This document shows positions 10,269-15,396 of a stretch of 34,909 nt of DNA, one piece after another. The notes beneath the pieces were generated by a model, which searched no databases, had not been told where the DNA came from, and saw nothing but the letters and a program-made list of their open reading frames with translations. The stretch covers positions 1 to 34,909 of the forward strand of contig NZ_JACXAF010000011.1 of the NCBI RefSeq assembly GCF_014773395.1. Direction: 5' to 3'. Positions within the stretch are counted from its first letter, which is position 1; the number at the start of each line of letters is the position of its first letter. This DNA comes from Neiella litorisoli. Lineage in GTDB: Bacteria; Pseudomonadota; Gammaproteobacteria; Enterobacterales; Neiellaceae. The position numbers were made by a program, and so were the translations under genes.

Positions 10269-10369
10269 AATCAATCCCGCTTATATAGAAAAATAAGACG
10301 TGGATTTTGCCAACGAAGCACCATCCCTTACAATGCCCAGCCCGATTATTTCAGGATTTAGTCACGCTC

Positions 10370-11392
10370 ATGAGCACCATTGATCAGGTTTTAACCCTTG
10401 GCGGTTGTCATTATACGGTTTACGACATGGGTCGAACCGTACAACGAATTAGCAAGCAGCAATTTGTCGAATTTGAGCAAGGTGCGCTTCCTTACCCGTA
10501 TCCGATCCAAGGTCATGCTTGTTTTGCTGTTGTATTTTCCAAGCCAGACCAAGCCCAAACACCTTATTTGTGGCTGCTGAAATTTGCCGTTGATGAAGTC
10601 AGTAAACTGATTTTTAGCGGTCGCGATGACTTTATCCGGATGGTCGTTCAAGCATTAGGTGAGGACATTGCCAATGCCGATATCGATGCCGAGGCGCTCA
10701 ACAATCATCCATATGCGTTCAAACCATCCACCGAAAAGTTAGCCGTATTGAATGCCCGCATTCGCAATAAACTACACCAACCTGCTTCTATTTATTACGA
10801 GCCAGCTTACCAGTACTTCTGCCATCAACCGACAGAGTCAGGCTGGCAAGCATTGGGCTTTCAGGGCATTGCTGATTTAACCGAACGACTCGATAGCGAT
10901 TGCGCTGCGGCCATCGCCAAGCACTTAGACCAATTGCCCGAACCTGCCTTTTGCGCACTTGCCCAGTGCCTTGAGCACATTGAGCTGCCAGCGGTTATCC
11001 AACAGCAACTACTGAGCTGGCCCAATAACAAACGAGAAACATTCTGGCTTCGAGCTCTCACTGGAGCACAACAGCAACCCGCTGCCGAGGCCATTGCTGA
11101 ACTGTTGGACACTAGCCTGTCGATTGATCTGCTGATCACCCTGTGCGGTCGCCACTGGCGCTATTTCAATCAGCCAGAACGCGCCGTGAACCTACTGGAA
11201 AGCTTACTACGCTGCGACCAAGGTAATATGGTGTTCGCCGCACTTGTTGCGGATTTAACGGCCATTCCTGAATGTCGCCAAGCCACACTGCAAGCACTCC
11301 GTTGGCCACAGCGTTCGGCGGCGCTCAGCCAAGCCATTGGGCAATTGTTTCAGCAGGTCAAACCCGCCCCCCATATTGATGAAAGGAATTAA
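10370..11392 (+). CDS. DUF3549 family protein, function unknown
   Basis: A 340-aa cytoplasmic protein with no signal peptide or membrane segment. It resembles DUF3549 proteins found near truC in Alteromonadales. The N-terminal third is beta-rich and polar (VYDMGRTVQRISKQQFVEFEQG...PYPYPIQGHACFAVVF), followed by YLWLLKFAVDEVSKLIFSGRDDFIRMVVQALG. The C-terminal half is alpha-helical with HEAT-like Leu/Ala-rich repeats. The ATG at 10370 (MSTIDQVLTLGG) was chosen because the 21 residues of the longer frame upstream do not look like protein. Divergent from yqcC, it may share a control region with it. No biochemical role is proposed. Confidence 0.75.
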   Translation: MSTIDQVLTLGGCHYTVYDMGRTVQRISKQQFVEFEQGALPYPYPIQGHACFAVVFSKPDQAQTPYLWLLKFAVDEVSKLIFSGRDDFIRMVVQALGEDIANADIDAEALNNHPYAFKPSTEKLAVLNARIRNKLHQPASIYYEPAYQYFCHQPTESGWQALGFQGIADLTERLDSDCAAAIAKHLDQLPEPAFCALAQCLEHIELPAVIQQQLLSWPNNKRETFWLRALTGAQQQPAAEAIAELLDTSLSIDLLITLCGRHWRYFNQPERAVNLLESLLRCDQGNMVFAALVADLTAIPECRQATLQALRWPQRSAALSQAIGQLFQQVKPAPHIDERN

Positions 11393-11506: not shown

Positions 11507-13141
11507 ATGGGATGGCTTCACAACTTAAGATTTATGGCCAAGCAAATGTTAATTGCGGCCATATTCGGAACAGCAATTGTCGTTTTAATCGTGGTTTCGT
11601 TAAGCGCCACCCGCCAGTTAGGCAACGACACCTCGACCTTTTCCGACAGTTTTTTGCCGCGGGTGAACTTTCTGCTGCAAGCCGATCGTGATTTGTATCA
11701 GTCCATATTGGCAGAGCGCACCCTGATATCGATTGATTCTTCCCATCCTGATTACGCGGCATTAGTCACTCAGCATCAGGAAAATATCCAGCAAGCAGCC
11801 GACCGCGTCAAAAGTGCCCAAGCGCTGGCAACCGATTCAGCACAACTTCGCATGTACAACGATTTTCAAAGCGAGTTAAGTCGCTGGCAAACCGTGTCGA
11901 ATAATGTCCTGAGTACCGCGGCCGATTCCAAGCAACGAGCAGCAACCATGAGCGTGGGCCAGTCCACTGAGCAATTTGAGCGCGCCCGAGACTTGATTGA
12001 TAAGCTCACAGAACTGACTGAGCAAGAAGCCGCTGCAAGCATCAAACACTCCAGAGAGATAAGAGAAAACGTCACCTGGACCATCTGGTCGGTTGCCATC
12101 ATTGGCATTGTCGTCGCTTTTTCAATCGCTTATGTCACAGCCATCTACTCAACCAATGTCATTCACGATGTCCGCGATCGGATCCGTGATATCGCCGAGG
12201 GCGAAGGCGACCTGACCCAGCGGATCAAGGTCCAGGGTAAGGACGAAATTGGCGAACTATGCGTTGCCTTTAATTCCTTTGTTGAAAATCAGGCCGGCAT
12301 TATTGGCCATATTAAAGGCGCCATGTCGGGCCTCAACAATGAGCTGGGTAAAGCCACTCGGCAAATCACCAAGGCACAGCAAGCCACCTCCAATCAGCAA
12401 GCAGAGAATGATCAAATTGCTACCGCAGTCACCGAGATGGCCGCCACGGTACAAGAAGTCGCACGCAATGCCAGTGATGCCGCTTCGGCGACGCACAAGG
12501 CCGACACCGATGTCGACAATGGCCGCGCCGTGGTTAACAAGACCGTTGAGAGCATTGAAGATTTAGTGTCTGACATTGAGAAATCAGCACAGGTGATCCA
12601 GCGAGTAGAAACCGGCAGCCATGAAATTGGCACGGTGATGGATGTCATTAGCAGTATCGCCGAACAGACGAATTTACTGGCGTTGAATGCTGCAATTGAA
12701 GCCGCTCGGGCTGGCGAACAGGGCCGAGGATTTGCTGTGGTCGCCGATGAAGTGCGGACCTTAGCGCAGCGAACCCAAGAATCCACCAGCTCGATCCGAG
12801 ACATTATTGAGCGCTTACAAAGTGAAAGTGCAGCAGCGGTTGAAGCAATGAAAGCCAGTCAGAATGGTACTCAGCAAGTCGTTGAGCTGGCTGCTCAAAC
12901 CGGTGATGTATTAGAGCAAATTAGTGTCGCGGTAAAATCCATCGCCGATATGAATACACAAATTGCGGCGGCTTCCGAGGAGCAGAGCAGCACCGCCGAT
13001 CAGATCTCTGAAAATGGCGTCCGCATTAAGCAAATTGCCGAAGAGACCTATCAAATCACACTCGACGTCACCAGCGCCAATGAGCGGGTTGGCTCTCACA
13101 CCAATGAAGTGGCGCAGTTGGTTGGACGATTTAAGATTTAA
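11507..13141 (+). CDS. Methyl-accepting chemotaxis protein
   Basis: A 544-aa transmembrane chemoreceptor that senses a periplasmic ligand and controls the CheA kinase. Layout: first membrane helix about 14-34; periplasmic four-helix-bundle-type sensor about 35-189 (QADRDLYQSILAER resembles MCP helical sensors); second membrane helix about 190-212; HAMP about 213-265 (EGEGDLTQRI, KDEIGELCVAFNSFV); then the signalling coiled coil with the conserved tip (SSIAEQTNLLALNAAIEAAR, GRGFAVVADEVRTLAQRT) near 380-423. It lacks the C-terminal CheR-binding pentapeptide, ending in VGRFKI. GGAGGA lies 10 nt before the ATG. The ligand is unknown. It converges on the CsrB-like RNA and shares a bidirectional terminator with it. 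Confidence 0.95.
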   Translation: MGWLHNLRFMAKQMLIAAIFGTAIVVLIVVSLSATRQLGNDTSTFSDSFLPRVNFLLQADRDLYQSILAERTLISIDSSHPDYAALVTQHQENIQQAADRVKSAQALATDSAQLRMYNDFQSELSRWQTVSNNVLSTAADSKQRAATMSVGQSTEQFERARDLIDKLTELTEQEAAASIKHSREIRENVTWTIWSVAIIGIVVAFSIAYVTAIYSTNVIHDVRDRIRDIAEGEGDLTQRIKVQGKDEIGELCVAFNSFVENQAGIIGHIKGAMSGLNNELGKATRQITKAQQATSNQQAENDQIATAVTEMAATVQEVARNASDAASATHKADTDVDNGRAVVNKTVESIEDLVSDIEKSAQVIQRVETGSHEIGTVMDVISSIAEQTNLLALNAAIEAARAGEQGRGFAVVADEVRTLAQRTQESTSSIRDIIERLQSESAAAVEAMKASQNGTQQVVELAAQTGDVLEQISVAVKSIADMNTQIAAASEEQSSTADQISENGVRIKQIAEETYQITLDVTSANERVGSHTNEVAQLVGRFKI

Positions 13142-13161
13142 GAGCAAATCATGCCGACACC

Positions 13162-13195
13162 AAAAAGCCGGGGCTGCAAGCAACCCCAGCTTTTT
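13162..13195. terminator. Bidirectional terminator shared by the MCP gene and the CsrB-like RNA
   Basis: AAAAAGC...GCTTTTT outer arms with an inner GGGG/CCCC stem. On the plus strand it has a C-A mismatch; on the minus strand the same position is a U-G wobble, and the inner stem continues as GGGGUUGC/GCAGCCCC. It is therefore stronger for minus-strand RNA, although it can also end the chemoreceptor transcript. Confidence 0.85.
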
Positions 13196-13427
13196 ATGAG
13201 CATCCCGCTCACTCCCCCGTCATAGTCATCCTGATTATGCCAGTATCCGTACTGCCGCCTAATTGGCGTTCCTTATTCCCCTGCGATCAATCCCGATCTG
13301 CATCCTGATAACGTCCTTGCGATCTGAGTGATTAAACTCTCCGAGTTTAATGGAGCATCCAGCTCACTTGACGAGCGTCCTGCTATCACCCCCTGTGATA
13401 CTGCATCCATGCTTGTCGCCAACTCGA
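13162..13427 (-). ncRNA. csrB: CsrB-family regulatory RNA (CsrA/RsmA-sequestering sRNA)
   Basis: CsrB-type RNAs bind many copies of the translational regulator CsrA through GGA motifs in hairpin loops and so relieve its repression. On the minus strand this ~265-nt stretch has about 13 GGA motifs and no open frame. Clear hairpins presenting them (plus coordinates): 13331-13351 (9-bp arms, GGA loop), 13241-13254 (CAGTA-CGGA-TACTG), 13353-13365 (GAGC-TGGAT-GCTC), 13198-13210 (GAGC-GGGAT-GCTC) and 13403-13412 (GCA-TGGA-TGC). The classic CAGGAUG appears at 13227-13233 and 13301-13307, and CAGGACG near 13376-13382. It ends in a strong intrinsic terminator (13162-13195). A -35 TTGCTG (13455-13460) and -10 TACATT (13433-13438) with 16-nt spacing suggest a start near 13427. 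It lies between yqcC and syd, as E. coli csrB does. The length falls between RsmY/RsmZ and E. coli CsrB. Exact ends are inferred. Confidence 0.85.
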
Positions 13428-13432
13428 GATCT

Positions 13433-13460
13433 AATGTACCCCTGCGGTGTTTTTCAGCAA
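13433..13460 (-). promoter_or_regulatory. Putative sigma-70 promoter of the CsrB-like RNA
   Basis: On the minus strand TTGCTG, a 16-nt spacer and TACATT, just before the first GGA hairpin. The upstream DNA (13461-13560) is AT-rich. A full GacA/UvrY-type palindrome (TGTAAG-N6-CTTACA) was not found; only a TGTAAG half occurs at 13588-13593 on the minus strand. Confidence 0.5.
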
Positions 13461-13593
13461 TGGATGCTAAAGAATTGTTAAGTTACACAAACCAAGAAAC
13501 ATAGCAGCACAAGCAATTTATTCGATTATTAATCAACTAGTTAATCTTATTTGATGGGGTTATGACTGCGCCATAGATAACACAAAGTCTTAC

Positions 13594-13623
13594 AAACAGT
13601 GTGCGAAATATCGCACACTGTTT
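13594..13623. terminator. Perfect 13-bp hairpin between the GNAT gene and the CsrB-like RNA
   Basis: AAACAGTGTGCGA / TCGCACACTGTTT with an AATA loop. It lies 54 nt beyond the minus-strand GNAT gene stop and probably insulates the small RNA from read-through. A palindromic regulator site is the alternative. A second short hairpin, GCGGCT/AGCCGC, lies at 13639-13655. Confidence 0.6.
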
Positions 13624-13676: not shown

Positions 13677-14294
13677 TTAGCGATGGAGGAACATCAAGGT
13701 GCCAGATATATTGGCAAACTCAAGCTGCTTAATTTGCTGATAACGATGATTTTCCAGCCATTGAATAGAACGCTGTTGGCTGACAAAAATACCCACGCCA
13801 TCAGCACTACCGCCCTCTTCTAATAAACTCTCAACGCCAGCCAACAAGGTATCGCCAACCCCATGGCCCTGATAATTCGGCGCCGTAGCGAGTAAACTTA
13901 ATTGGTAGCAATTATCCGAGGGCAAAGCCTGACAAATACGTTGCTCTTTTCCTAGCAAGCGGCTGGTACTGACAATCCCCGCGGACAGCAGCATCTTCAT
14001 TCGCCAGTTCCAGAACCGGCCACCAGCAAGCGGCGAGTCTGGCGTTTGTAAACAGGCCACGCCAACTAATAAATCGCTATCAAATGCTCCGATGACCGGC
14101 AAGTGATATTGCCAGAACACATCCAGCTCTTCACGAAAAAGCGCACGCAAACGCTGTTCATAGTTTTCATTGTCAGCATCAAAAATACGCTGAAACATGG
14201 CGTCATCATGATAAGCCTGAAACAGCAGGCTAGCGGCAATTCCAGCGTCTTCCGCGCCCAAATATTGCAATCGCAGTGAGGTTGTTGTTGTCAT
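13677..14294 (-). CDS. GNAT family N-acetyltransferase
   Basis: A 205-aa cytoplasmic GNAT-fold protein that probably transfers an acetyl group from acetyl-CoA. The acetyl-CoA binding motif A is visible as YQLSLLATAPNYQGHGVGDTLL (near 131-152), containing the Q-G-x-G-x-G pattern. A late beta-strand region follows with VGIFVSQQRSIQWLENHRYQQIKQLEF. The N-terminal half (AYHDDAMFQRIF) resembles GNATs acting on small molecules. An AGGGA ribosome-binding site lies close to the ATG. It stands alone between the CsrB-like RNA and the small KfrA-like gene. The substrate cannot be told from sequence. Confidence 0.85.
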   Translation of the reverse strand: MTTTTSLRLQYLGAEDAGIAASLLFQAYHDDAMFQRIFDADNENYEQRLRALFREELDVFWQYHLPVIGAFDSDLLVGVACLQTPDSPLAGGRFWNWRMKMLLSAGIVSTSRLLGKEQRICQALPSDNCYQLSLLATAPNYQGHGVGDTLLAGVESLLEEGGSADGVGIFVSQQRSIQWLENHRYQQIKQLEFANISGTLMFLHR

Positions 14295-14838: not shown

Positions 14839-15396
14839 TTAGAGAATTAGCGGCTTCGCTGATTGTAAAAATTCCATCAGATCTGGTGCTAGGGTATGGC
14901 TCGGTTTGCGGCCCGGTAATTCGGCAACAATCGAGCCATCATCAGCCACTGACACCACCAATTCAGAATCAACAGCCACCCCAATAAAGACACTGGGTTC
15001 GAGCTTAAAGCGTTTTTGAGTGAGCAAATGTCCGGTTAAGTTTTGCAAGAAGCGGACATAGTCATCCTGATTCCAAGGCAACAACAACTCGACCGCGCCA
15101 ATCTCAGATTCAATGGTGATACCCGCGCCATACAATGCATTCCAATAGGCTTTGCCACTAGGATGTAAATCAACCGACATGGCTTGTTCCAATTCAGCAA
15201 ACTGGTCGGCATCGTCGCGCTCTACCGCATGCCACTGGCTGTCACTCCCTTCTTCGGCATCGCTTGGCACACAGGGAGAGGGCCAATCTTGGTCAATCAC
15301 CACCACATGCGGTTCGCCAGTTTGCGATACATAATCGCTCTGGTAGCGGTCAATGAGTTGCTGTAGCGCCTTCGCGGTGGCTTTTCGATCATTCAT
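14839..15396 (-). CDS. syd: SecY-interacting protein Syd
   Basis: A 185-aa Syd protein, a cytoplasmic factor that associates with SecY at the inner membrane and is thought to act in quality control of the translocon. The length matches E. coli Syd (181 aa). Family features are the acidic surface (DAEEGSDSQWHAVERDDADQF), the LHPSGKAYWNALYGAGI region, LLLPWNQDDYVRFLQNLTGHLL, FIGVAVDSELVVSVADDGSIVAELPG and LAPDLMEFLQS. It is divergent from queF, as in E. coli, with a 69-bp gap. Confidence 0.93.
   Translation of the reverse strand: MNDRKATAKALQQLIDRYQSDYVSQTGEPHVVVIDQDWPSPCVPSDAEEGSDSQWHAVERDDADQFAELEQAMSVDLHPSGKAYWNALYGAGITIESEIGAVELLLPWNQDDYVRFLQNLTGHLLTQKRFKLEPSVFIGVAVDSELVVSVADDGSIVAELPGRKPSHTLAPDLMEFLQSAKPLIL

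Follow-up and report, generated by a model that had tools for sequence, protein, structure and literature searches.

CsrB-type RNAs and the PrrB/RsmZ RNAs share the same working principle. In E. coli, CsrB (b4408) is an RNA of 369 nt that is encoded between yqcC and syd. The account of its promoter in PMC4682653 describes a UvrY site, TGTGAGAGATCTCTTACA, centred at -183/-182 and followed 5 bp downstream by a second, partial UvrY site, with a putative IHF site in the interval from this box to the promoter. For Shewanella oneidensis, PMC3171408 reports two genes, csrB1 and csrB2, predicted at 420 and 421 bp, with transcripts from about 450 nt that were detected by northern blot and that dropped more than 100-fold without uvrY or barA. 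The presence of multiple csrB copies in one genome has already been described (PMC6262261), and three such RNAs are reported for Alteromonas (PMC5864184). A literature search on the genus name, covering titles and abstract openings, found no paper on Csr RNAs for Neiella.

We analysed a 34,909-nt stretch of the Neiella litorisoli genome, hereafter referred to as the window, and conclude, with a probability of about 95%, that a csrB gene encoding a predicted sRNA of ~265 nt occupies the minus-strand segment 13426..13162 and corresponds by position to E. coli csrB (Table 1). An earlier note on this DNA had placed a CsrB-family RNA at 13162..13460, an interval that takes in the core promoter as well as the predicted transcript. 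The order of genes in the window is yqcA, truC, yqcC, DUF3549, MCP, the RNA gene, GNAT, an unnamed ORF, syd and queF, where the names yqcA and truC were assigned from Pfam family and position. We checked the MG1655 order, yqcA-truC-yqcC-csrB-syd-queF, and found that it is contained in the window order with equal strands; the earlier note had stated that E. coli csrB lies between yqcC and syd, and this agrees in both order and strand. The Neiella sRNA likewise lies between yqcC/DUF3549 and syd, on the strand of syd and yqcC. By contrast with E. coli CsrB, the Neiella copy is too diverged for the Rfam CsrB model (RF00018), and it is surrounded by the additional DUF3549, MCP and GNAT genes and a further ORF.

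Table 1. Features of the csrB locus in the window; positions count from the first base of the window.
Feature	Position	Strand	Basis
Predicted CsrB-type sRNA, ~265 nt, 13 GGA	13162..13426	-	GGA density, fold, hairpin loops, conservation, covariation
Intrinsic terminator of the sRNA	13162..13195	-	Both-strand fold; orthologue terminators
-10-like hexamer TACATT	13433..13438	-	Chosen by pattern
-35-like hexamer TTGCTG	13455..13460	-	Sequence and alignment; 16 nt from -10
Predicted IHF site, full consensus match AATCAACTAGTTA	13531..13543	+	Consensus match; between box and promoter
Extra UvrY half-site TGTAAG	13589..13594	-	Sequence; 5 bp downstream of palindrome
Putative UvrY/GacA palindrome, TGTGCGATATTTCGCACA on minus strand	13600..13617		Pattern match, spacing
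yqcC (DUF446), neighbour as in E. coli	9957..10274	-	Pfam
DUF3549 protein, common neighbour in marine relatives	10307..11392	+	Pfam
Methyl-accepting chemotaxis protein (MCP), convergent with sRNA	11507..13141	+	Pfam
GNAT acetyltransferase, upstream neighbour	13677..14294	-	Pfam
syd	14839..15396	-	Pfam

We counted 13 GGA motifs on the minus strand of 13162-13460 and one on the plus strand, matching the roughly 13 on one strand that the earlier note had given. This block was the GGA-densest of 69,220 segments of 299 nt on both strands, with nine GGAs in the next separate block. Relative to 2000 dinucleotide shuffles of the same G-rich stretch, the count taken alone was weakly elevated (mean 9.6, P=0.086); relative to mononucleotide shuffles, P was 0.033. 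We then asked how many GGAs lie in hairpin loops, holding the GGAs fixed and shuffling the remaining bases 500 times. At a stem score of at least 3, 9 of the 13 GGAs were in loops, a number reached in 6 of the 500 shuffles. At a score of at least 3.5 the number was five, which was a weak result (49/500 shuffles; an initial run with a somewhat longer sequence again gave five, a number reached in 110 of 1000 shuffles). Five GGAs remained at a score of at least 4 (7/500), and three at a score of at least 5 (3/500). The claim that most GGAs lie in loops is hence correct when 3-bp stems are counted (9/13), and does not extend to stricter stems (5/13 at 3.5 or more). The motif CAGGAUG, which had also been noted, is present twice as CAGGATG, with the GGA at 13305 and 13231. 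The fold of 13155-13480 was more stable than that of shuffled sequences (z -4.18, 0/100).

The region upstream of the gene has the layout of a csrB promoter. With the transcription start set as the seventh base after the -10 hexamer, the centre of the putative UvrY palindrome falls at -183/-182, as in E. coli csrB, and the RNA is 265 nt long; the 5' end at 13426 is a prediction made from promoter spacing alone. Matches to the pattern TGTGNGANATNNCNCACA with 0-1 mismatch occur at four loci in the 4.32-Mb genome, namely the window copy and three tandem CsrB-like copies. Allowing up to 2 mismatches gave 29 and 27 matches on the two strands, as compared with 19 and 14 for the reversed control, and with so many control matches only the sites with 0-1 mismatch are informative. 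The predicted IHF site is a full match to WATCAANNNNTTR, which we take to be the IHF consensus. We compared 13 copies from four genomes, of which seven, including the window copy, have an IHF-like site +62 to +65 nt from the box centre; the pattern used for this comparison was looser than the full consensus, which the window copy also meets. The distance from the box centre to the end of the -10-like hexamer was 171-176 nt in all 13 copies, and 176 nt in the window copy, with each hexamer defined as the final match to the pattern beyond the first 150 nt of the stretch, a rule that leaves some freedom of choice. Counterparts of the -10-like hexamer in other copies include TAAATT, TAGATT, TATCTT and TACAGT, and the -35-like TTGCTG is invariant across the four syntenic copies. 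A scan with the sigma-70 consensus found no passing promoter at Neiella csrB, and we therefore read the promoter from the conserved spacing instead. The position of the palindrome, the second partial site and the intervening IHF site all resemble those described for E. coli csrB in PMC4682653.

When 59 genomes were searched at the DNA level, the stretch was recovered from four, its own among them. The matches were 82% identical over 359 query bases in G002, 74% over 148 in G001, and 74% over 75 in G004, with G001 and G002 being genomes of the same genus, Neiella. All three matches are syntenic orthologues with a box upstream, 14-16 GGAs per 300 nt, and a terminator of 12-14 bp; in G001, syd is on another contig, such that orthology there rests on DUF3549, the MCP gene and sequence. 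In a four-way alignment, 29 of 39 GGA columns were invariant, as compared with 37 of 96 other G/A columns (P=1.4e-4). For 8 of the 13 GGAs of the RNA, each of the four rows shows a GGA either in the matching columns or no more than two or three columns away, and the other five are each absent in one row (four in G004, one in G001). We observed changes on both sides of the pair in 24 of 61 consensus pairs, against a shuffle mean of 10.5 and with none of 500 shuffles reaching this number; this result is favoured by the derivation of the consensus structure from the same four-row alignment. The RNA body was also better conserved than the spacer between box and promoter in every comparison (83% versus 59% identity with G002, 61% versus 41% with G001, 57% versus 41% with G004). 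The gene, its promoter architecture and its conservation are established computationally. Both the CsrB-type identity that had been proposed and the minus-strand length of ~265 nt find support in the UvrY box, the IHF site and the promoter spacing, as well as in synteny, conservation and covariation.

The earlier note had suggested a search with the Rfam CsrB, RsmY and RsmZ models, and this check did not yield a match at the gathering score for any family anywhere in the window. The best permissive match to the Neiella copy was PrrB_RsmZ (RF00166), with 20.8 bits and an E-value of 0.012 against a cut-off of 44, although its locus and promoter are of the csrB type. Three other permissive matches were dismissed: MIR319 and ar35 cover the terminator hairpin only, and DUF3800-I matches the plus strand (E 4.1) across the end of the MCP gene and the terminator. 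A search of the same genome with RF00018 did not list the window csrB position, and detected two tandem copies on contig C9 (34.1 and 31.7 bits, both below the cut-off of 71). A third, more diverged tandem copy (L001 about 535-750), absent from the RF00018 list, was found by sequence, box search and GGA density. These three CsrB-like genes (L001:535-1740, equal to G000:C9 about 58986-60191) each have their own UvrY box, and adjoin an ORF that we presume to be deoC-like. They are similar to the window copy in kind of box, spacing, GTTGGC start region and number of GGAs (14-15), and differ from it in locus, in length (about 230 nt) and in that two of the three were found by RF00018. Of the three orthologues of the window copy, only that in G004 was matched as CsrB (19.0 of 71 bits, E 0.095). 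Since window csrB is not recognised by Rfam at its cut-offs, the case for it rests on the other evidence; the gathering score sets a limit for detection and does not describe a biological property, and the two scored tandem copies miss it too. The earlier note had counted against its own proposal the combination of a better CsrB homologue elsewhere and a sequence not conserved in relatives. Better-scoring homologues do exist, in the form of the tandem copies, but the sequence of the window copy is conserved in relatives, indicating that window csrB is a further copy at an E. coli-like position. Multiple csrB copies being already known, the Neiella set is a further case of a known kind.

The existence of the tandem trio raises the question of whether the window copy is in decay, i.e., is being lost after the trio took over, and gives little or no working RNA. 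Its place outside the Rfam thresholds would fit such a fate, as would the smaller number of GGAs in stable loops than in the orthologues (5/13 versus 10/16, 9/14 and 7/13 at a threshold of 3.5) and the replacement by GGGGG of one loop GGA that is present in G001, G002 and G004. We nonetheless consider decay quite unlikely, because the box palindrome, IHF consensus, -10 and spacing are all intact, the RNA body is better conserved than the box-promoter spacer, the pair changes are compensatory and the GGA columns conserved, and the two tandem copies scored by RF00018 are below the cut-off as well.

We also compared the csrB neighbourhood across genomes. DUF3549 was found in 29 of the 59 genomes searched, including that of N. 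litorisoli, and was not found in 14 control genomes, E. coli among them. We examined 63 named DUF3549 loci, which are not independent, since 52 are from Shewanella and the records of G001 and G002 are included. Four of the 63 extend less than 5 kb after DUF3549 and were excluded from the block count; in 56 of the remaining 59, the 5 kb that follow DUF3549 include a block with 13 or more GGAs per 300 nt on the minus strand (the exceptions are L143, L162 and L196). A UvrY-like box, by a slightly relaxed pattern, lies near the GGA block in 54 of these 56, and a plus-strand GGA-rich block after DUF3549 was found in none of the 59. The nearest GGA-rich block starts at most 1 kb from DUF3549 in 41 of the 56 loci, and 52 of the 63 have a GNAT relative beyond DUF3549. 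The Shewanella loci are thus like that of Neiella in having GGA-rich minus-strand blocks after DUF3549, mostly with UvrY-like boxes; the named loci often have more than one block, whereas the Neiella locus has one shorter copy. The earlier note had suggested that the DUF3549, MCP and GNAT genes were added around csrB. This is supported in part. DUF3549 and GNAT are, by their frequencies, common neighbours in marine groups. The MCP gene, by contrast, looks like an insertion local to the lineage, since it is present in G000, G001, G002 and G004, and the 41 loci with a block at most 1 kb from DUF3549 have no room for it.

Matches to RF00018 were found in 30 of the 59 genomes, including that of N. 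litorisoli. With coordinates compared by eye, six of the 30 have a match between DUF3549 and syd (G016, G021, G026, G035, G045, G055) and four have one beside DUF3549 or syd (G010, G011, G024, G049). The remaining 20 have their listed matches at other places, which makes the DUF3549-syd locus a common but not a universal site for csrB. In G005, the DUF3549-syd interval has no GGA-rich block and no box, and three csrB matches are on another contig. Several genomes have repeated or additional copies. G015, a genome of the same order, has five tandem RF00018 matches of 80.2 to 91.5 bits that make up a long csrB array (G015:C1:4533806-4536939). Crowded or overlapping RF00018 matches in G007 (G007:C1:595028-595758) and G053 (G053:C1:606745-607576) appear as if CsrB-like units were repeated in one GGA-rich stretch. 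G004 has a further GGA-rich block (L124:4842-5141, equal to G004:C6 about 222641-222940), with a one-mismatch box upstream, that is partly matched by RF00018.

The hairpin at 13162-13195 can be formed on both strands. On the minus strand it is fully paired with U-G wobbles (-22.9 kcal/mol), and on the plus strand it has mismatches (-15.1 kcal/mol), confirming the earlier observation that the wobble favours the sRNA strand. The scan that looked for a sigma-70 promoter also returned two terminator-like matches, both elsewhere, with the hairpin 13195-13162 not among them. The hairpin may also end the convergent plus-strand MCP gene, less stably. Its position just after the MCP stop and its ability to form on both strands could suggest that the stretch belongs to the MCP gene, as a plus-strand 3' untranslated region or attenuator, and that the GGAs are incidental. 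We regard this as very improbable: the hairpin is stronger on the minus strand, the GGA excess is confined to that strand, the UvrY box and IHF site are placed as a minus-strand promoter needs, and in the 41 of 56 named loci described above the block is too close to DUF3549 for an MCP gene to intervene. The stretch had been described as gene-free, and it is without evident genes, the longest ORF wholly inside it having 49 aa and those overlapping its edges having 90, 78 and 58 aa with TTG or GTG starts; that the 49-codon TTG ORF, a minus-strand frame within the RNA, marks a short protein-coding gene instead of an RNA gene is scarcely credible given the 1- and 2-base gaps in the body of the four-orthologue alignment and the base-pair covariation among the orthologues.

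A csrB gene at this locus would act in a genome that encodes the remainder of the Csr circuit. We identified CsrA (100.8 bits, cut-off 70.1), UvrY (401.2 bits, cut-off 280, with an intact frame of 217 aa) and BarA (1171.6 bits, cut-off 890). By analogy with the known pathway, we infer that the BarA-UvrY-CsrB-CsrA mechanism operates in Neiella. BarA would phosphorylate UvrY, and phosphorylated UvrY would bind the palindrome at 13600-13617, with IHF bending the DNA at 13531-13543. Minus-strand transcription would begin near 13426 and stop at the hairpin 13195-13162. The RNA would then offer up to 13 GGA motifs, mostly in hairpin loops, that may sequester CsrA from its mRNA targets, and the three tandem sibling RNAs encoded on the other contig would act alongside it. 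What is known of the family thus leads us to expect that Neiella csrB is transcribed, that UvrY and IHF bind upstream of it and that its RNA titrates CsrA, and effects on motility, c-di-GMP and carbon storage would likewise follow from the known pathway. The divergence of the window copy and the GGGGG in one of its loops leave room for a weaker or specialised role. It is conceivable, if doubtful, that csrB at the E. coli-like site is now a distinct, weaker sponge, that the tandem array elsewhere took over the bulk of CsrA titration, and that the two sites answer different conditions despite both having UvrY boxes.

Overall, the Neiella copy looks like an ordinary CsrB-type RNA, a class that is already well known, and its presence is a gain for annotation that is unsurprising biologically. 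Such genes are easily found from a palindrome placed at constant spacing in the promoter, from GGA density and from a DUF3549 neighbour, whereas the Rfam cut-offs miss them here. The analysis fills in the Csr circuit of a marine lineage, with four CsrB-type RNA genes led by UvrY boxes alongside CsrA, UvrY and BarA.
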